NCBI GenBank assembly: GCA_950295325.1
Contig: OX485804.1
Span: 20,024,001-20,088,000, forward strand
Source: Polytrichum commune
Lineage: Eukaryota > Streptophyta > Polytrichopsida > Polytrichales > Polytrichaceae
Direction: 5' to 3'
Length of the DNA stretch: 64,000 nucleotides
The notes below the pieces were generated by a model. That model was not told the origin of the DNA, did no database searches, and worked only from the letters and a program-made list of their open reading frames with translations. Both the position numbers and the translations under genes were made by a program. This document shows, in pieces, positions 3,960-63,301 of the stretch (position 1 is its first letter; each line of letters opens with the position of its first letter).

Positions 3960-6900
3960 TCATTTTGGTAATGTCGACAAGCTCGAACACCCAGACAAAT
4001 CCAATTTTGTCAAAGAAGTCAAGTTCTCCAATCCCTCTGGTAATGTCGTCAAGCTGGAACAATCAGACAAATTCAATTCTATCAAAGAACTCAACTTCCC
4101 CAATCCCTCCGGTAATGTCGACAAGCTCGAACACCCAGACAAATCCAATGTTGTCAAAGAAGTCAAGTTCCCCAATCCCTCCGGTAATGTCGTCAAGCTG
4201 GAACACTCAGACAATTTCAATGTCGTCAAAAAAGTCAAGTTCCCCAATCCCTGTGGTAATGTCGACAAGCTTGAACACCCAGACAAATCCAATATTGCCA
4301 AAGAAGTCAAGTTCCCCAATCCCTCCGGTAATGTCGTCAAGCTAGAACACATCGATAACAACAATTCCGTCAAAGAAGTCAAGTTCCCCAAACCCTCCGG
4401 TAATGTCGACAAGCTTGAACACCCCCACAAATCCAATGTTGTCAAAGAAGTCAAGTTCCCCAATCCCTCCGGTAATGTCGACAAGCTCGAACACCTAGTT
4501 AAATCCAATTTTGTCAAAGAAGTCAAGTTCCCCAAACCCTCCGGTAATGTCGACAAGCTTGAACACCCCCACAAATGCAATGTTGTCAAGGAAGTTAAGT
4601 TCCCCAATCCCTCCGGTAATGTCGTCAAGCATGAACACTCCCACAAATCCAATGTTGTCAAAGAAGTCAAGTTCCCCAATCCCTCCGGTAATGTCGTTAA
4701 GCTCGAACACGAAAACAAAGACAGTGTTGTCAAAGAAGTCAAGTATGCCAACATCTCCGGAAATGTTGTCAATTCCTCACATATCACTAGTCGAAGGGAG
4801 CTTACACGAAGGTTTTTCATGCCCATGGAATTGTCCTTCAGCCATTGTGAAATTTCTTTATTTATATAAATTGCTTCTATTTTTTTGTAGTTCTGGGTTT
4901 CAAAAACACCACAAAATGTCAAAATTATGTTTCGTTAATAAGAATGGTAAATAAATTCAACTTCCGTGCTAAGATGAGATGGGAAAACCAATTCATTGCA
5001 TATTACACAAGTGTCAAATGTCAAATTTAAGCAGCTTAGAAACACAAACCTTTACCAACATATTTGTACTTGCATTTCAAAAAAATCAACCTTTCTTTGC
5101 ACCATACCTTGTCATGTGTTGATCCAATTCCTAAAGGAATCATGTTTAGTTTCCAAATTCGAGTGCCCAAATATTCCTCGTTTGTCTCGGCAATCATACG
5201 CCCCATGTCGCGTAGTTGGTCGTGCATTATTATTTTTCCAAATACTATCTCAACCAAGGATTTTTCCACCAATATATCAAGCACATGATTTGGGGAGGCA
5301 CCATTGTTGGTAAATAAAGACAAGGCTCTTTCTTTGTACATGCCTATGGGAAAGATGCATGCTAGATCTAAAAACATGTTTTTCTCATTGTTTTCCAATC
5401 CATCAAAACTTATCATCAAGGTACTCCAAAGCCCTTCATCGCCATCCAAATGCCTACCCCTTTTCATCCTTTGGAAAGCCCTTTCCCAACTTCGAATCCT
5501 CTCCTTTCCCCGTAAGAATGCACCCATCACTTTCAAGCTCAAAGGCAAGCCATTACATTTTTCTATAATTTTGTCACGTAGATCAAAGAGTCGTGGTGGC
5601 AATTGAGTTCCATCCACAAGAACGTAAGCATCAAAGAGTTCTTTTGATGCATTTCTATCTAACTTTTCAACATCTATCCTACCATTCACGTCCACACGAT
5701 TTTCAATTAAAGCCCAACCACGGGTTGTTATAATAATTTTGGTGCCATTGTTGACACAAGAAACATCCGCTGGTATTATTTCATGCACTTGAGTTGCATC
5801 TCTAGGATCATCCAATATTAGAAGGACCTTTTTTGTAGCCAACAACTCCCTCATTATCTTCTGTGCATCCACCAATGTCCAAGTGGACTCTTTGTCCCTT
5901 CCAAGCTCTTGTAAAATTTCACATAAGATTTCAAGTGAATTTCTACTTTTCAAATTTCCAATAAAACATGATGCATCATATGTGGACCTCACATCATCAA
6001 ATATGGCCTTAGCCAAGGTGGTCTTCCCTATTCCACCCATACCAATGAGACCCAAAATATTCACTCGCTTAAGGTGGTTTTTCACCTTTGCAAGATTGCT
6101 TTGAAAACCAACCACAACTTCATATTGTGTTTTCTGCACATCCACCTGTACGAAGTTCACATATCATGTCAATTGGACCAAGAAGTGTACACTATGATAG
6201 AAGATTAAAAAAATGAACAATACATATGAATATTGTGAATCTTCTCTAAAAGGTATTACAAAACATGTTCTAAAACTTGGTCCAATTGACCATGCTTGCA
6301 CCGGGTCCTATGATTTGGTTCAATCATCATGTCTTCAACTCCAAGCAAATTGAAGTAATTATAACAATTAAAAAAATGACATCTCAAAAATACACAATAT
6401 GCGTATTGTAATGGAATGTGTTCTTACCTTCTTGGGAGCAAAGACGTTCATGTGATCCAAGGCCTTCTTCAGTTGGGCGCTTGGAGAACAAGTCCCACCT
6501 TTGTCAAATTGCGGTATTTCATTTGAATATATTCCAACCATGAACTCCTTTTTCAAGGTTGCAAGCCTCTTACAAATGTTAGAAAATGTTGGCCTTTGTG
6601 AAGGATCCTCAATCCAGCATTCTTCAATCAACATGGTAAGCTCCCTACAATTGATAGGTAGCTCAGGCCTCCAACGTTCTTTTATTTTTTGCAAGATAAC
6701 CTCTTTCTTAATAGTCTCTGAAAATGGTTCCTTCAAAGAAAGGATCTCTGAACATGTCATACCAAATGACCATACATCAGCTGGAAAAGGACATGCCATA
6801 TTTGAAGGTGGCATTTCTTTATTGTTGTTATTCATCTCAGGTGCCATGTACTTTGGTGTACCGATAGTAAACTCTTGCAATTCCGGTTTGCTTTGAACCT

Positions 6901-8095
6901 CTGTTTTGGAAGTATCATAATCTGTCAATTTGACAAAATCATAGCCAATATTCCCCTTGACTCTTGCAAGTGTTGACACGGAGCTTAGAAGCACATTGCT
7001 TGGCTTTAGATCAAGATGGGCAACATGCATGTCATGAAGATAACACATGCCCCTTGCGATTTCATGCATCATATCAATTGCAACAAGATATGGTAAAGGC
7101 GTCTTTTGTTTCTTCACCAAATCACTCAAGCCCATCTCCATGAGCTCCATTACTAGAAACAAATTTCTTGAGACATTGTTTGATTCATCCACATTTCCCT
7201 CATGAGTTTCATTGAGTCTTCCACAACAAATAAATTTGACGAGGTTTGGATGGCTCAAACATGCTAAGATGCCAGCCTCTTTGCGAAAGTTGGGAAGAAC
7301 TCTTAACATTTTCGTTGCACTCTGAAGTCCCAACCATCTTGATTTGTGCACCTCCCCTGCCGCTCCAAATCCTATTGGTTTTTCGAATACCGGCTTTATG
7401 CCATCCTTTGGAATTTCCAAAGCATCCAATTCCGCACCTTTCACTTGTGGCAATTCAAATTGCAATCTCCTCAATAAATGCTTTGCCAATTCATACTCCT
7501 CGGAATCATTGGGCATCGTTTCAAGTCGTTTCTTAAGCCTTTCCACCATGGCTTTTTCATCACTTTCAATTTCGTCATAAAAGGCAACACTAAAATCCAT
7601 ACATGGGATTCTAATATTTTGTGAATCCGGAGAGATAGCCAAATACTTTTCGTACATTGCATCCCAAAAACACTGCAAATCATCCACAAGTTCTCGAAAG
7701 GCCTCTCTATTGTTCATTTGGAATGCCACTGCATCGCACCATTCTTGCTTCCCACAATCTTGGACCAATATTATTACTTTTCGAGTAATGCGATGTAACT
7801 CCCCAAGAACAAGCCCAAATTTATTAGTCGTCTCCTTAGTGGATGTGATCATCTCATCCACATAAAGTGTAACTTGGTCAAGCTTGTCGACAAGATTTCT
7901 ACATTGTTTCTCATTCAACACTTGCTCCGCCTTAAGAACCTCTCGAAGTTTGCTTACTTCCTCCCTTTGCCATTTCAAAATATTTCCAAGCTCATTGCTT
8001 TGTTTTTGTCCTTTTCCCACATATGCCTCAAACTTTAAGAACCAAACGCTTATGAAATCCCAAATCATGCGAATGAATTGCAAAATCTTGGCCAT
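3960..8095 (-). CDS. PNL immune receptor A: kinase-NB-ARC-LRR, LRR truncated
   Basis: Three predicted exons: 8095..6428, 6145..5108 and 4892..3960, all phase 0 with GT/AG borders, giving 1212 residues. Exon 1 has a hydrophobic N-terminal helix, a helical DUF1221/MLKL-like region (about 40-220) and a kinase domain (about 240-515). In the kinase, G-loop GFGAAG, the Lys of ATK and APE are kept, but HRD is HLD and DFG is DYD. Exon 2 is NB-ARC with P-loop GMGGIGKTT (about 591), LLILDD (about 664), GLPL (about 755), FLDLACIF and MHD (about 863). Exon 3 holds a linker and 12 LRR units of 24 residues, then a stop inside unit 12 created at the deletion junction. The first in-frame ATG is 8095; the frame opens at a TTG further upstream. 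About 13 of 900 residues differ from copy B over exons 1-2. Probably encodes a shortened receptor; function unproven. Confidence 0.85.
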
Positions 8096-10462
8096 GATGA
8101 AACCCTTCTTATTCCCCAAAACAATCTACCAATACATAGTTGGTTGATTTGCACACCATAGCCTGTAAGTGAATAACAACTGACCTAATCTGCAATAACA
8201 AAATTTGAGCAAGGTAGATTCATCAAAATTACAAAATATTTAGCAAAAATACTAGTTAAAGTTCCCTCCAAAAGACAATGCAAAATTCGGTCAACCTCTA
8301 AGCTCCAAATTTAGGGATGAGAAAGAATTCAATTTGAATAATAAATCTCTTATTATAATCTCAAGAATGAATATCATGGTAGTTGCACAACTTGGAGAAT
8401 CCACAAAATGCATTATTTAGTGTCAACTACCATTTGGAGTTACAAAACACTATAATCTTCACAAACAAAATGTAAATAGGTCACATATACATAATATGCA
8501 AGAATGTACATTGTACACATTGCCACTTCCAATGAATACTTTTAGCAAAGCAACAATCAAATGCACCTTGCCAACCAATGCTAGGACTCATGGTTTTGGG
8601 CCATAAATGGGGCTAATCTAGTAATTTCTTAGCAAATCGCCCGAAGCAACTACAAAGTGGAACTAACTAAGTTTTCTATATAGTATGTATACCAACAAAA
8701 TAAATAAAACGACACTTCATGACAATTCTCACGTGCTACAAATTACACTACATACCATATTAGCTTTTGATCATTCTCGTCACCAACATAATTAATGCAA
8801 GATATTCCAATTTCTTCTCACCACCAACAAAAGCAAACTACTCCCCAACCCTCCGACTAGCTTAAACTAAAAAATCACAAATTCTCATCACAATCATAAA
8901 TCCCGGAATCACTTATGCCTAATATACTGCCCCCTTCTCCAAATCCAACATCAACAAATTAGACAACATACTCAATAAACTAACCACAGAAATATGCAAC
9001 ATACCCAAAAGCACAACCAACATCCTCACCCACCTGAACAACAAAGACTTTGACATCAACACAACATCCCTCCTCCCCAACTATCTACATAATGAGTCCT
9101 CCTTTCACAAAAATAGGCACATACACCTTGAACCGCATCATCAGAACCATGATTAGTTTAAGGCCAACGGCTCAAATTCACGCCGGTGTAAAGCACACAT
9201 GCAATTTTGTTGTCTTTTCTTTTCTTCTCATTCCTCAATGCCATAATGGATATGTCTTTTGGCTCTAAGTAGCTTTGTAAAGGTATTCTAAACTTGTTGA
9301 GAAAAGATCCCACACTTTGCCAAGTGATTCATGAAGTATGTCTTAATGCACTTTGAATTATCGCTGTGTATTTGTTATCAAGCGTTGAAACTCGGCAAGT
9401 TTATTGCATTCTCCAAGGTACATTTCTATTGGTAATAGAGAAAAATCCAAGCCTTCATGATAAAAATGACAAAAAAATATGTCTATGTGAACACTCAAAT
9501 GCTTGTATATTTGAAAGGTTGAATAACAATTCAACACAATAATATTTCTTAAGCATACAATTTGAATGGTCCAAGGACAATCATTCAATTGAAGTGTTGT
9601 GATATGTCAACTGTATGTTATGCAATATACCATACGAAGGATCTAGACTTTCAAGAGTTGTGAGGCACCCATCACAACTTTAACCCCCTTAGAATTAAAC
9701 AAGACAATGAATGGGGAGAACTAACCACTAGTCACAGATGAATGAATTGAGTTTGAGAAATAACCGGTCGAAGTTCAAGACTTCAGGAGAATTACCCATC
9801 GTTCTAGAGGATCTATGGAATATACCTCAAGATTAATAAAGAACCCCCGAAAGGTCAAAACATGTAACTGATTGGACTTGGAAACACTAGGATTTTGATT
9901 GGTTGTGCCCAAAAATCTCCCCGGCTATTGATATGAGAACTTGCAAACGTGGGGACAGTCCTCATGGGAATCATTTGACTTAGCAACCTGGATTGTGTAT
10001 ATATGAAGTCCGACAAATCCAACACTGTGGAGCACAAGATCAATTCAATATTAGATTAAATCTACCTTGCATACCCTTCCCAGGTTACGATTAACTTAAA
10101 CAGTTTGATAACTTGCACACTAGAAAAATACGGAAAGACGGTTCACCTACTCCAAGCTACCAGAACAACAAAGACCACTTAATAGGTTTGAGAAGGTTGA
10201 ATCCACCACCTAACACTGTTTTGGAACATATCCGATCAAGAGTGACATTTTGGTCTAACTGTCTATGATCATCTTTTGCTTACCGCAATCTGCATAAAAG
10301 TGAATTGAACGAAAACCTCTCCTCTAAAAAGTAAATAATAAAATGAAATAAAGGGGGACAGAGGCACTACATTCAGCCTTGGAAACAAAAGTCTCAATAT
10401 TCGAATTAAGAATTCCTATTGGATGTCGCTTTCACCAGGTAAACCTTGGGGAGGAAACCCCA
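8096..10462. other. Upstream region of PNL A and unique intergenic DNA
   Basis: 8096-8794 is AT-rich presumptive 5' region of gene A, nearly identical to 63302-64000. 8795-10462 has no counterpart in the window. Frames at 9050-9268, 9358-9588 and 9855-10043 are short, lack recognisable motifs, and are not called. No promoter element could be fixed with confidence. Confidence 0.55.
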
Positions 10463-56248: not shown

Positions 56249-59200
56249 CTATGTTGTCAAAGAAAACAAGTTCCCCAAATTGAATCCCTCTGGTAATGCC
56301 AAGAAACTTGAACACCCAGACAAATCCAATGTCGTCAAAGAAGTCAACTTCTCCAATCTCTCCGGTGATGTCGACAAGCTCGAACACCCAGACAGATCCA
56401 ATATTCTCAAAGAAGTCATCTTCCCCAATCCATCCGGTAATGTCGTCAAGCTTGAACACGCAGACAATTTCAATGTTGTCCAAGAAGTCAAGTTCCCCAA
56501 TCCCTCCGGTAATGTCCTCAAGCTGGAACACCTCGATAACCACAATCCCGTCAAAGAAGTCAAGTTCCCCAATCCCTCCGGTAATGTCCTCAAGCTGGAA
56601 CACCTCGATAACCACAATCCCGTCAAAGAAGTCAAGTTCCCCAATCCCTCCGGTAATGTCGACAAGCTCGAACATCCAGACAAATCCAATGTTGTCAAAG
56701 AAGTCAACTTCCCCAATCCCTCCGGTAATGTCATCAAGCTGTAACACCCAGACAAATCCAATATTGTCAAAGAAGTCAAGTTCCCCAATCCCTTCGGTAA
56801 TGACGACATGCTCGAACACCCAAACAAATCCAATTTTGTCAAAGAAGTCAACTTCCCCAATCCCTCCGGTAATGTCGATAACATCGAACACCCAGACAAA
56901 TCCAATGTTGTCAAAGAAGGCAAGTTTCCCAATACCTCCGGTAATGTAGACAAGCTCGAACACCCAGCCAAATCCAATGTTGTCAAAGAAGTCAAGTTCC
57001 CCAATCCCTCCAGTAATGTCGACAATCTCCAACACCCAGACAAATCTAATCTTATCAAAGAAGTCAAGTTCCCCAATCCCTCCAGTAATGTCGACAAGCT
57101 CGAACACCCCCGCAAAAACAATGTTGTCAAAGAAGTCAAGTTCCCCAATCCCTCCGGTAATGTCGACAAGCTCCAACACCAAGACAAATCCAATGTTGTC
57201 AAAGAAGTCAAGTTCCCCAATCCCTCCGGTAATGTCGACAAGCTCCCACACCAAGACAAATCCAATGTTGTCAAAGAAGTCAAGTTCTCCAATCCCTCCG
57301 GTAATGTCGACAAGCTCCCACACCAAGACAAATCCAATGTTGTCAAAGAAGTCAAGTTCTCCAATCCCTCCGGTAATGTCGACAAGCTCCGACACCAAGA
57401 CAAATCCAATGTTGTCAAAGAAGTCAAGTTCCCCAATCCCTCCGGTAATGTCCTCAAGCTGGAACACCTCGATAACCACAATCCCGTCAAAGAAGTCAAG
57501 TTCCCCAATCCCTCCGGTAATGTCGACAAGCTCCAACACCAAGACAAATCCAATGTTGTCAAAGAAGTCAAGTTCCCCAATCCCTCCGGTAATGTCGACA
57601 AGCTCCCACACCAAGACAAATCCAATGTTGTCAAAGAAGTCAAGTTCCCCAATCCCTCCGGTAATGTCGACAAGCTCCCACACCAAGACAAATCCAATGT
57701 TGTCAAAGAAGTCAAGTTCTCCAATCCCTCCGGTAATGTCGACAAGCTCCGACACCAAGACAAATCCAATGTTGTCAAAGAAGTCAAGTTCCCCAATCCC
57801 TCCGGTAATGTCCTCAAGCTGGAACACCTCGATAACCACAATCCCGTCAAAGAAGTCAAGTTCCCCAATCCCTCCGGTAATGTCGACAAGCTCGAACATC
57901 CAGACAAATCCAATGTTGATAAAGAAGTCAAGTTCTCCAATCCCTCCAGTAATGTTGTCAACCGTGAACACTCAGACAATTTCAATGTTGTCAGAGAAGG
58001 CAACTTTCCCAATACCTCCGGTAATGTCAACAAGCTCGAACACCCAGACAAATCCAAAGTTGTCAAAGAAGTCAAGTTCCCCAATCCCTCCGGTAATGTC
58101 GTCAAGCTGGACCACTCACACAATTTCAATGTTGTCAAAGAAGTCAAATTTCCCAATCCCTCCGGTAATGTCGACAAGCTTGAACACCCAGACAAATCCA
58201 GTTTTCTCAAAGAAATCAAGTTCCCCAATCCCTCGGGTAATGTCATCAAGCTTGAACACCCAGACAAATCCAATTTTTTCAAAGAAGTCAAGTTCCACAA
58301 TCCCTCCGGTAATGTCGTCAAGCTGGACCACTCACACAATTTTAATATTGTCAAAGAAGTCAAATTTCCCAATCCCTCCGGTAATGTCGACAACCTCGAA
58401 CACCAAGACAAATCCAATGTCGTCAAAGAAGTCAACTTCTCCAATCCCTCCGGTGATGTCGACAAGCTCGAACACCTAGACAGATCCAATATTCTCAAAG
58501 AAGTCATCTTCCCCAATCCATCCGGTAATGTCGTCAAGCTTGAACACGCAGACAATTTCAATGTTGTCAAAGAAGTTAAGTTCCCCAATCCCTCCGGTAA
58601 TGTCCTCAAGCTTGAACACCTCGATAACCACAATCCCGTCAAAGAAGTCAAATTCCCCAATCCCTCCGGTAATGTGGACAAGCTCGAACACCCAGACAAA
58701 TCCAATGTTGTCAAAGAAGTCAAGTTCCCCAATCCCTCCAGTAATGCTGTCAAGTGTGAATAATCAGACAATTTCAATGTTGTCAAAGAATGTAAGTTTC
58801 CCAATACCTCCGGTATTGTCGACAAGCTCGAACACCCAGACAAATCCAATATTTTCAAAGAAGTCAAATTCCCCAATCCCTCCGGTAATGTCGACAAGCT
58901 CGAACACCCAGACAAATCCAATGTTGTCAAAGAAGTCAAGTTCCCCAATCCCTCCTGTAATGTTGTTAGGCTTGAACACTCAGACATTTTCAATGTTGTC
59001 AAAGAAGTCAACTTGCCCAATCCCTCCGCTAATGTCGACAAGCTCGAACACCCAGACAAATCCAATGTTGTCAAAGATGTCAAGTTCCCCAATCCATCCG
59101 GTAATGTCGTTAGGCTTGCCCATCGACACAATTCCAAGGTTGTCAAAGAAGTCAAGTTTCCCAATCCCTCCGGTGATGTCGACAAGCTCGAACACCCAGA

Positions 59201-62200
59201 GAAATCCAATTTTATCAAAGAAGTCAAGTTCTCCAATCCCTCTGGTAATGTCGTCAAGCTGGAACAATCAGACAAATTCAATTCTGTCAAAGAACTCAAC
59301 TTCCCCAATCCCTCCGGTAATGTCGACAAGCTCGAACACCCAGACAAATCCAATGTTGTCAAAGAAGTCAAGTTCCCCAATCCCTCCAGTAATGTCGACA
59401 AGCTCGAACACCCCCGCAAAAACAATGTTGTCAAAGAAGTCAAGTTCCCCAATCCCTCCGGTAATGTCGACAAGCTCCAACACCAAGACAAATCCAATGT
59501 TGTCAAAGAAGTCAAGTTCCCCAATCCCTCCGGTAATGTCGACAAGCTCCAACACCAAGACAAATCCAATGTTGTCAAAGAAGTCAAGTTCCCCAATCCC
59601 TCCGGTAATGTCGACAAGCTCCGACACCAAGACAAATTCAATGTTGTCAAAGAAGTCAAGTTCCCCAATCCCTCCGGTAATGTCCTCAAGCTTGAACAAT
59701 GAAACAACTTCAATGTTGTCAAAGAAGTCAAGTTCCACAATCCCTCCGGAAATGTCGACAAGCTCCAACACCAAGACAAATCCAATGTTGTCAAAGAAGT
59801 CAAGTTCCCCAATCCCTCCGGTAATGTCGACAAGCTCCAACACCCCCACAAATCCAATGTTGTCAAAGAAGTCAAGTTCCCCAATCCCTCCGGTAATGTC
59901 GTTAGGCTTGAACACGAAAACAAAGACAATGTTGTCAAAGAAGTCAAGTATGCCAACATCTCTGGAAATGTTGTCAATTCCTCACATATCACTAGTCGAA
60001 GGGAGCTTACACGAAGGTTTTTCATGCCCATGGAATTGTCCTTCAGCCATTGTGAAATTTCTTTATTTATATAAATTGCTTCTATTTTTTTGTAGTTCTG
60101 GGTTTCAAAAACACCACTAAAATGTCAAAATTATGTTTCATTAATAAGAATGGTAAATAAATTCAACTTCCGTGCTAAGATGAGATGGGAAAACCAATTC
60201 ATTGCATATTACACAAGTGTCAAATGTCAAATTTAAGCAACTTAGAAACACAAACCTTTACCAACATATTTGTACTTGCATTTCAAAAAAATCAACCTTT
60301 GTTTGCACCATACCTTGGCATGTGTTGATCCAATTCCTAAAGGAATCATGTTTAGTTTCCAAATTCGAGTGCCCAAATATTCCTCGTTTGTCTCGGCAAT
60401 CATACGCCCCATGTCGCGTAGTTGGTCGTGCATTATTATTTTTCCAAATACTATCTTAACCAAGGATTTTTCCACCAATATATCAAGCACATGATTTGGG
60501 GAGGCACCATTGTTGGTAAATAAAGACAAGGCTCTTTCTTTGTACATGCCTATGGGAAAGATGCATGCTAGATCTAAAAACATGTTTTTCTCATTGTTTT
60601 CCAATCCATCAAAACTTATCATCAAGGTACTCCAAAGCCCTTCATCGCCATCCAAATGCCTACCCCTTTTCATCCTTTGGAAAGCCCTTTCCCAACTTCG
60701 AATCCTCTCCTTTCCCCGTAAGAATGCACCCATCACTTTCAAGCTCAAAGGCAAGCCATTACATTTTTCTATAATTTTGTCACATAGATCAAAGAGTCGT
60801 GGTGGCAATTGAGTTCCATCCACAAGAACGTAAGCATCAAAGAGTTCTTTCGATGCATTTCTATCTAACTTTTCAACATCTATCCTACCATTCACGTCCA
60901 CACGATTTTCAATTAAAGCCCAACCACGGGTTGTTATAATAATTTTGGTGCCATTGTTGACACAAGAAACATCCGCTGGTATTATTTCATGCACTTGAGT
61001 TGCATCTCTAGGATCATCCAATATTAGAAGGACCTTTTTTGTAGCCAACAACTCCCTCATTATCTTCTGTGCATCCACCAATGTCCAAGTGGACTCTTTG
61101 TCCCTTCCAAGCTCTTGTAAAATTTCACATAAGATTTCAAGTGAATTTCTACTTTTCAAAATTCCAATAAAACATGATGCATCATATGTGGACCTCACAT
61201 CATCAAATATGGCCTTAGCCAAGGTGGTCTTCCCTATTCCACCCATACCAATGAGACCCAAAATATTCACTCGCTTAAGGTGGTTTTTCACCTTTGCAAG
61301 ATTGCTTTGAAAACCAACCACAACTTCATATTGTGTTTTCCGCACATCGACCTGTACGAAGTTCACATATCATGTCAATTGGACCAAGAAGTGTACACTA
61401 TGATAGAAGATTAAAAAAATGAACAGTACATATGAATATTGTGAATCTTCTCTAAAAGGTATTACAAAACATGTTCTAAAACTTGGTCCAATTGACCATG
61501 CTTGCACCGGGTCCTATGATTTGGTTCAATCATCATGTCTTCAACTCCAAGCAAATTGAAGTAATTATAACAATTAAAAAAATGACATCTCAAAAATACA
61601 CAATATGCGTATTGTAATGGAATGTGTTCTTACCTTCTTGGGAGCAAAGACGTTCATGTGGTCCAAGGCCTTCTTCAGTTGGGTGCTTGGAGAACAAGTC
61701 CCACCTTTGTCAAATTGCGGTGTTTCATTTGAATATATTCCAACCATGAACTTCTTTTTCAAGGTCGCAAGCCTCTTACAAATGTTAGAAAATGTTGGCC
61801 TTTGTGAAGGATCCTCAATCCAACATTCTTCAATCAACATGGTAAGCTCCCTACAATTGATAGGTAGCTCAGGCCTCCAACCTTCTTTTATTTTTTGCAA
61901 GATAACCTCTTTCTTAATAGTCTCTGAAAATGGTTCCTTCAAAGAAAGGATCTCTGAACATGTCATACCAAATGACCATACATCAGCTGGAAAAGGACAT
62001 GCCATATTTGAAGGTGGCATTTCTTTATTGTTGTTATTCATCTCAGGTGCCATGTACTTTGGTGTACCGATAGTAAACTCTTGCAATTCCGGTTTGCTTT
62101 GAACCTCTGTTTTGGAAGTATCATAATCTGTCAATTTGACAAAATCATAGCCAATATTCCCCTTGACTCTTGCAAGTGTTGACACGGAGCTTAGAAGCAC

Positions 62201-63301
62201 ATTGCTTGGCTTTAGATCAAGATGGGCAACATGCATGTCATGAAGATAACACATGCCCCTTGCGATTTCATGCATCATATCAATTGCAACAAGATATGGT
62301 AAAGGCGTCTTTTGTTTCTTCACCAAATCACTCAAGCCCATCTCCATGAGCTCCATTACTAGAAACAAATTTCTTGAGACATTGTTTGATTCATCCACAT
62401 TTCCCTCATGAGTTTCATTGAGTCTTCCACAACAAATAAATTTGACGAGGTTTGGATGGCTCAAACATGCTAAGATGCCAGCCTCTTTGCGAAAGTTGGG
62501 AAGAACTCTTAACATTTTCGTTGCACTCTGAAGTCCCAACCATCTTGATTTGTGCACCTCCCCTGCCGCTCCAAATCCTATTGGTTTTTCGAATACCGGC
62601 TTTATGCCATCCTTTGGAATTTCCAAAGCATCCAATTCCGCACCTTTCACTTGTGGCAATTCAAATTGCAATCTCCTCAATAAATGCTTTGCCAATTCAT
62701 ACTCCTCGGAATCATTGGGCATCGTTTCAAGTCGTTTCTTAAGCCTTTCCACCATGGCTTTTTCATCACTTTCAATCTCGTCATAAGTGGCAACACTAAA
62801 ATCCATACATGGGATTCTAAAATTTTGTGAATCCGGAGAGATAGCCAAATACTTTTCGCACATTGCATCCCAAAAACAATGCAAATCATCCACAAGTTCT
62901 CGAAAGGCCTCTCTATTGTTCATTTGGAATGCCACTGCATCGCACCATTCTTGCTTCCCACAATCTTGGACCAATATTATTACTTTTCGAGTAATGCGAT
63001 GTAACTCCCCAAGAACAAGCCCAAATTTATTAGTCGTCTCCTTAGTGGATGTGATCATCTCATCCACATAAAGTGTAACTTGGTCAAGCTTGTCGACAAG
63101 ATTTCTACATTGTTTCTCATTCAACACTTGCTCCGCCTTAAGAACCTCTCGAAGTTTGCTTACTTCCTCCCTTTGCCATTTCAAAATATTTCCAAGCTCA
63201 TTGCTTTGTTTTTGTCCTTTTCCCACATATGCCTCAAACTTTAAGAACCAAACGCTTATGAAATCCCAAATCATGCGAATGAATTGCAAAATCTTGGCCA
63301 T
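56249..63301 (-). CDS. PNL immune receptor B: kinase-NB-ARC-LRR with ~52 LRRs
   Basis: Three predicted exons: 63301..61634, 61351..60314 and 60097..56249, phase 0 throughout, 2184 residues. Exon 1: hydrophobic N-terminal helix, helical DUF1221/MLKL-like region with 'QMNNREAFRELVDDL', and a kinase domain with G-loop GFGAAG, the usual Lys, HLDLKPSN for HRD, DYD for DFG, and APE. Exon 2: NB-ARC with GMGGIGKTT, LLILDDP, TKIIITTRGW, GLPLSLK, FLDLACIF and MHDQLRDMGR; its RNBS-D and MHD forms are TIR-NLR-like. Exon 3: linker 'NYKKIEAIYI', then about 52 LRR units of 24 residues (LxxLxLsxCxxLxxLPEGLgN). NLRs of this kind sense pathogen effectors in the cytoplasm via the LRRs, and NB-ARC exchanges nucleotide. 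The alternative TTG frame opening at 63325 is not used because the first ATG is 63301. Confidence 0.88.
57158..57877 (-). repeat. Two near-identical 360-bp higher-order LRR repeats
   Basis: 57158-57517 and 57518-57877 are each five 72-bp units in the same order and differ by about one base over most of their length. The flanking units are much more diverged. A partial third relative is at about 59400-59690, and another block (56376-56740) resembles 58380-58740. It marks a very recent in-frame duplication inside the gene B LRR exon. Confidence 0.9.

Follow-up and report, generated by a model that had tools for sequence, protein, structure and literature searches.

A probable plant MLKL-related module at the N-terminus of kinase-NBS-LRR proteins in the moss Polytrichum commune

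Introduction

The question raised by the locus described here is what lies ahead of the kinase in a moss protein kinase-nucleotide-binding site-leucine-rich repeat (PK-NBS-LRR, or PNL) protein, and how that part might act. The locus is in a stretch of 64,000 nucleotides from Polytrichum commune (GenBank assembly GCA_950295325.1, contig OX485804.1, positions 20,024,001 to 20,088,000 of the forward strand), which is called the window below and carries two copies of a PNL gene. PNL genes are known from the moss Physcomitrella (PMC3352924) and the accounts accessible in several papers describe their N-terminus as a protein kinase (PMC3352924, PMC10952240, PMC11218826, PMC7145615). In the relevant parts of two reviews, the biochemical output of kinase-NLRs (nucleotide-binding leucine-rich repeat receptors) is treated as an open question (PMC10952240, PMC10586772). 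Our analysis, conducted on sequence alone, leads us to put at roughly 0.55 the probability that the N-terminal executioner of these proteins is a module related to plant MLKL, with a HeLo-type bundle, a brace and an equipped kinase, fused to NB-ARC and LRR.

Results

Architecture of the window gene

Exon 1 is a stop-free reading frame on the minus strand (63301-61634) whose translation has 556 residues and the N-terminus MAKILQFIRMIWDFISVWF; QMNNREAFRELVDDL sits at residues 126-140. In Pfam, a protein kinase is found at residues 237-511 (E about 1e-36) and exon 2 encodes NB-ARC and a ROQ1-type winged helix. Exons 1 (63301-61634), 2 (61351-60314) and 3 (60097-56249) join into a single frame of 2184 amino acids with GT-AG borders, phase 0 at both junctions and a length divisible by 3 for each exon. 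These junctions are predicted, having been set by reading the DNA sequence. Kinase, NB-ARC and LRR follow one another within one gene, which is the PNL architecture, and the predicted phase-0 introns fall at the PK/NBS and NBS/LRR borders, as in the definition of PNL genes given in the corresponding part of PMC3352924. The window gene is a kinase-NBS-LRR gene of three exons. A preliminary description of the window had proposed two PNL genes with an N-terminal helix and a helical region placed ahead of NB-ARC/LRR. Both genes are present, one with the 556-residue exon 1 and the other starting at 8095, and the domain order is confirmed in one frame. The features are as follows.

61634..63301, minus strand: exon 1 (556 aa), with N-terminal helix, helical bundle, brace-like helices and protein kinase (open frame, Pfam kinase, donor GTAAG at 61633)
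63137..63301, minus strand: residues 1-55, N-terminal region with a predicted hydrophobic/amphipathic helix (about 3-27), common to clade a (alignment, hydropathy, hydrophobic moment, low-confidence model)
62597..63136, minus strand: residues 56-235, probable HeLo/DUF1221-related bundle (LN..QC, W..A and QMNNREAFREL blocks) and putative brace-like helices 173-214 (hhalign against DUF1221-type kinases; 6lba N-terminus is the first match of profile A4)
61769..62593, minus strand: residues 237-511, protein kinase with K262, E273, HLD D362, N367 and DYD D392 (Pfam, motif count, tree)
60314..61351, minus strand: exon 2, NB-ARC (P-loop GMGGIGKTT) and ROQ1-type winged helix (Pfam, phase-0 junctions)
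56249..60097, minus strand: exon 3, long leucine-rich repeat array of 1282 aa (open frame, splice acceptor)
6428..8095, minus strand: second PNL copy, exon 1, whose DNA is 99.2% identical to that of exon 1 in the first copy

The exon 1 open frame of the second copy spans 6368-8125. The first 235 residues of the two copies are 98% identical, and their DNA is 97.7% identical in a 4.8-kb block and 96.5% identical in a 2.7-kb block, the ends of which may reflect the pieces compared.

Relatives in the same genome

Residues 1-235 have at least 151 matches in the 408-Mb genome (150 of 375 candidates were scored), the best non-self match having an E of 3.1e-154; some are fragments. This abundance is far beyond chance. 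The sets compared were A1 (18 PNL N-termini of the window's clade, clade a), A2 (seven sequences of a second clade, clade b), A3 (seven sequences retrieved by the DUF1221 model PF06760), A5 (six DUF1221-type kinases, which are A3 without L043), A7 (17 PNLs of clades a and b, none selected via DUF1221) and A4 (A7 plus L043, giving 18 PNLs of clades a, b and c). L043 was transferred from the DUF1221-type set to the PNLs because a P-loop follows it; A1 and A7 do not contain it. Since all seven members of A3, and hence all six of A5, were chosen by the DUF1221 search, their 7/7 DUF1221 matches are not independent. L003, L012, L017 and L018 are truncated, duplicated or partial and were excluded from the exon-1 alignment.

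With one pattern applied to one strand, a P-loop was found 3' of the exon in 13/13 clade-a loci with more than 800 bases of downstream sequence covered (L020-L032), in 3/15 loci with 0-648 bases covered (L001-L015, L001 being the window gene), in 7/7 clade-b loci and after L043. The same check found no P-loop in the roughly 3.5 kb that follow L016 and L044 or in the 2.3 kb that follow L017. The A5 kinases are called standalone on a downstream coverage of about 3.5 kb for L016 and L044 and of 330-402 bases for the other four. LRRs were looked for in L032, L033, L034 and the window.

Comparison of the N-terminal bundle with DUF1221-type kinases

In profile-profile comparisons with hhalign, PNL residues from about 56 to 215 match the domain at the N-terminus of DUF1221-type kinases encoded in this genome. 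A1 aligned with A3 at a probability of 98.5 (E 2.6e-15) over 147 columns. Against A5, A1 gave a probability of 97.4, an E of 9.6e-12 and a score of 79.8, where 100 column shuffles reached at most 22.3 and the reversed profile 15.7. The values for A7 against A5 were 98.2, 4.8e-14 and 94.5 (maximum of 100 shuffles 21.3; reversed 19.2), and those for A4 against A5 were 98.4, 5.1e-15 and 100.4 (maximum of 100 shuffles 19.5; reversed 18.0).

When the A3 profile was searched against the PDB, the first two matches were the N-termini of 6ka4 (E 8.8e-5) and 6lba (E 1.1e-4), which we take to be Arabidopsis MLKL entries; their PDB names are F22L4.1 protein and Protein kinase family protein. The PNL-only profile A4 had 6lba as its best match (E 3.2e-4), and a further, weak segment in the brace (2.6 bits) was collinear with it. 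A4 also matches FADD death domains weakly (E 0.036). No animal MLKL chain was among the PDB matches listed, which were the best 60 of 2050 for exon 1, 3 for A1, 7 for A3, 17 for A4 and 10 for A7.

Searching the genome with PF06760 gave 16 matches at E up to 10, one of them above the cut-off (L016, 27.4 bits). Weaker matches include L043 (19.5 bits) and two places that are also in the list for residues 1-235 (18.7 and 17.4 bits; E 0.19 and 0.47), the latter being the clade-a PNL L023. In Pfam, L043 matches RPW8 (E 4.7e-4) and DUF1221 (E 0.0012), both below the Pfam cut-offs, and members of A1 match RPW8 in 2/18 cases (best E 0.003) and HeLo in 1/18 (0.11). Together, the profile comparisons argue that the PNL N-terminal module is very probably homologous to the N-terminal part of DUF1221/plant MLKL proteins. 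The resemblance had been put forward in the preliminary description, and both hhalign and the PDB search with A4 bear it out.

Catalytic residues and phylogeny of the kinase

Judged by its residues, the PNL kinase is catalytically equipped. The catalytic Lys, Glu, His, Asp, Lys and Asn and the Asp of DFG are retained in all 34 PNL rows of the alignment (26 of clade a, 7 of clade b and 1 of clade c), several of which duplicate the window gene almost exactly. At least one catalytic position is lost in 3/6 DUF1221-type relatives (L016, L042, L044), and the Arabidopsis MLKLs in the alignments have neither the catalytic Lys nor DFG. The state that marks those MLKLs as pseudokinases was not seen in the PNL kinases, all 34 rows being intact. 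A degenerate kinase, as the preliminary description had it, is ruled out by the seven positions, and only the HRD Arg and DFG deviate. Clade a has HLD for HRD (Leu in 26/26 rows) and Tyr for the Phe of DFG (26/26). The DFG glycine, residue 394, shows an unusual acidic swap to Asp in the window's subclade, with DYD in 16/26 clade-a rows and DYG in 10/26.

When exon 1 was searched against the PDB with phmmer, 6lba (7.7e-29) and 6ka4 (6.3e-25) headed the 2,050 sequences that matched at E up to 0.001. The PNL kinases cluster in a single clade (98/90) of a 41-row tree. A larger clade (100/98) holds 32 of the 41 rows, in which the PNLs are joined by the two Arabidopsis MLKLs, five kinases of DUF1221 type and six further kinases from this genome; five receptor-like kinases, L045-L047 and human MLK1 fall outside it. 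The tree supports the shared clade without ordering its branches, and so gives no PNL-MLKL sister relation. An origin from ordinary receptor-like kinases is rejected by this tree, as the five rows of that kind from the same genome lie outside; the grouping with such kinases that would have refuted the preliminary description did not arise. An earlier tree without receptor-like kinases also recovers the PNL clade (98/88). Row L050, which has a long branch, was removed between the two trees, and both carry long-branch warnings; the receptor-like rows L058, L061 and L063 are partial matches, and L060 was left out of the tree. A Pfam scan of four of the six other kinases in the clade found no DUF1221 at E up to 1, and L052 (E 2.5e-5) and L048 (E 2.2e-4) match the A3 profile weakly in a search of a small local set. 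The grouping with DUF1221 kinases is the one that the preliminary description had anticipated. Its MLKL proposal survives as ancestry, through the profiles and the kinase tree, and fails as to a degenerate kinase.

N-terminal helix and predicted structure

In 25/26 clade-a frames, a Met aligns with the window's Met or five residues earlier, the exception being L032. In the 18 A1 rows, about 60 residues separate the start from the LN..QC block, compared with about 25 in 5/7 clade-b rows; in 6lba the block is at position 30. The clade-b rows L036 and L037 carry leaders of a different sequence and some DUF1221-type rows also have N-terminal stretches of their own; therefore, we claim only the leader's sequence and its conservation in clade a as distinctive. 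The first helix of the window copy has a maximum moment of 0.51 and a maximum Kyte-Doolittle value of 1.31 (19 residues). The usual Kyte-Doolittle threshold for a transmembrane segment is 1.6. A transmembrane anchor was rejected because 1.31 is below this threshold, and the stretch is read as amphipathic; 2/26 clade-a rows exceed 1.9 (L024, L025). From these sequence features, clade a has an added N-terminal helix that is predicted to be amphipathic and hydrophobic.

A low-confidence model from the two window copies has helices at residues 3-27, 33-55, 62-81, 86-113 and 130-154. Given the poor quality of the model and a fold search that told us little, we only infer that helices 33-55, 62-81, 86-113 and 130-154 make up the bundle and 173-193 and 199-214 the brace. 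Foldseek gave no match at E of 0.001 or less. No MLKL chain was among the fold-search matches listed, which is neutral.

Selective constraint

The ratio of nonsynonymous to synonymous substitution rates (dN/dS) was 0.23-0.63 for the kinase in all 13 paralogue pairs and 0.36-0.54 for the bundle in 11 of the 13. It was lower in the kinase than in the bundle in 10/13 pairs. For residues 1-55, it was 0.23-0.72 in the 11 pairs that yielded a value. These values indicate that the HeLo-kinase module is being maintained, not decaying.

Other observations on the window and the family

In the window, the LRR open frame of the second copy has 324 codons (3960-4934) compared with 1291 (56249-60124) in the first copy, within a block that is 97.7% identical. 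This suggests that the repeat array has recently changed in length or been broken. Antisense to the LRR repeats (56745-60120, plus strand) are open frames as long as 672 codons, which are evidently a by-product of the repeat unit.

Two clade-b loci, L033:390-7688 (C2) and L034:389-9901 (C6), encode a kinase, NB-ARC and more than 1300 LRR residues in one frame with no interdomain intron. The open frame is 2433 codons in L033 and at least 3171 in L034 (3674 in the genome match list). L012 (C3:26873878-26875167) has an 802-codon frame with the N-terminal region twice in tandem ahead of one kinase and appears to be a doubled HeLo-like module. Seven of the 16 PF06760 matches cluster at C5:49.25-49.40 Mb, one of them carrying a stop, and this cluster is possibly a local array of MLKL-like genes.

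Discussion

How the module might act

If the N-terminus is an MLKL-related executioner, the LRR would sense a pathogen cue and NB-ARC would oligomerise by analogy with other plant NLRs. The clustered kinases could trans-phosphorylate each other or the brace, and this phosphorylation may unlatch the bundle together with the added amphipathic helix. Once freed, bundle and helix would act on membranes, through a leak or Ca2+ influx, to bring about cell death. Detection, phosphorylation and killing may in this way take place within one protein. The parts of the literature at hand ascribe an action on membranes to HeLo-type and CC bundles (PMC9950082, PMC10586772), and we regard it as an even chance that the PNL bundle is a membrane-acting executioner. 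As reported in the available portion of PMC11218826, a P. patens kinase N-terminus in N. benthamiana gave a modest, variable response with mild ion leakage.

The weakness of that cell-death response (PMC11218826) is one of several points that weigh against an MLKL-related executioner. The window protein itself does not match DUF1221 in Pfam, and DUF1221 is touched by just 1/18 A1 members (E 0.0038). Unrelated Pfam models score equally in A1, namely DUF7792 in 2/18 (best 2.8e-4) and GIT1_C in 5/18 (best 0.0032). Searched alone against the PDB, A1 gave nothing relevant, 6lba being absent at E up to 10, and in phmmer the N-terminal segment of the window protein scored just 3.3 bits to 6lba. A7 still had 6lba first at a borderline E of 0.0067, and it is L043, itself found through the DUF1221 model, that lifts the A4-6lba match from borderline. 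The structural models are poor, with a pLDDT of 39.7 for full exon 1 from a single sequence and a pLDDT of 62.6 and pTM of 0.61 for the N-terminus from the two window copies; VIA-align returned only generic helical bundles inside the tool's stated noise for helical models. Bundle dN/dS was 0.90 and 1.54 in two near-identical pairs with few changes. Because the A1, A7, phmmer and Pfam results are weak, we place the weight on the profile-profile comparison, its controls and the kinase.

Alternative explanations

The best of the alternatives is that the output is kinase signalling, with the bundle scaffolding or regulating the kinase, downstream substrates being phosphorylated and membranes left untouched. 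Conservation of the catalytic positions in 34/34 PNL rows, set against their loss in half of the DUF1221-type relatives, fits this idea, as does the stronger constraint on the kinase than on the bundle in most pairs. A review names phosphorylation of target proteins as the straightforward activity, at least in its accessible part (PMC10952240). However, the bundle retains plant-MLKL sequence features, and clade a has an amphipathic hydrophobic helix ahead of it that would be needless for a pure kinase. We consider kinase signalling possible but rather unlikely.

Alternatively, the HeLo-kinase unit could be an integrated decoy, in which a copy of an immune kinase baits effectors and other receptors deliver the output. 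The genome does have DUF1221-type kinases without a nearby P-loop (L016, L044), and integrated kinases in NLRs are described in the available text of PMC11218826. Yet the unit takes the N-terminal executioner position at 24/24 loci with a downstream P-loop, its catalytic residues are fixed (34/34), most pairs show a purifying and not a diversifying pattern, and the isolated P. patens N-terminus evoked some response (PMC11218826), making a decoy improbable. Least probable of all is that the helical region is unrelated to MLKL and shows only a general helical-bundle resemblance, as the missing DUF1221 match of the window protein, the generic fold-search bundles and the FADD and unrelated Pfam matches might suggest, for real profile scores of 80-100 stand against shuffle maxima of 19.5-22.3 (three sets of 100), bundle, brace and kinase all match in the same order and the kinases fall in the same clade of the tree.

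Implications

Recasting the PNL N-terminus as a HeLo-kinase module makes the output of kinase-NLRs directly testable and connects NLRs and MLKL, plant immune systems that have so far been filed apart. A further idea, which we hold as tentative and on balance doubtful, is that mosses have a one-chain, necroptosis-like receptor in many copies, in which the LRR would be the sensor, NB-ARC the oligomeriser, the active kinase the counterpart of RIPK3 and HeLo the executioner corresponding to MLKL. If this were true, the HeLo-kinase module would join CC, RPW8 and TIR as a separate class of NLR N-terminus, and ancestors with a competent kinase would have come before the pseudokinase MLKLs of seed plants.

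Comparison with known systems

The window gene shares the kinase-NBS-LRR order and the phase-0 introns at both borders with the PNL, or Pkn-NLR, genes of mosses as set out in the corresponding part of Xue et al. 2012 (PMC3352924). In the accessible portions of the published accounts, this class has a kinase only, and the approximately 200 residues before it carry no HeLo/DUF1221 assignment (PMC3352924, PMC10952240, PMC11218826). Among the matches listed in a search of the open-access literature (titles and starts of abstracts), there was no paper linking PNL N-termini to MLKL, DUF1221 or HeLo. In the RefPlantNLR tracker, proteins with PF06760 are kept apart in an MLKL class; a PNL N-terminus with a weak match to PF06760 would escape it, which may explain why a PNL-MLKL link was overlooked.

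Plant MLKLs (6LBA, 6KA4) have an N-terminal domain, brace and kinase in the same order as PNLs, with similarity at the profile level. The Arabidopsis MLKLs are without catalytic residues, whereas PNLs have them and are fused to NB-ARC-LRR. We know of no NB-ARC-LRR in the Arabidopsis MLKLs. As far as its available text goes, PMC9950082 reports the plant-MLKL family across seed plants. The wheat kinase-NLR Tsn1 can be likened by description to PNLs in having a kinase ahead of an NLR; unlike our reading of PNLs, its accessible descriptions include no HeLo-type bundle. Pm13 of Aegilops/wheat, also likened by description, has no NB-ARC or LRR in the architecture given in the part of PMC10951266 that describes it. 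Like PNLs, it has an MLKL-type N-terminal bundle and a kinase with all key residues, and as described there Pm13 is the nearest published parallel for an MLKL-type protein with a complete kinase.

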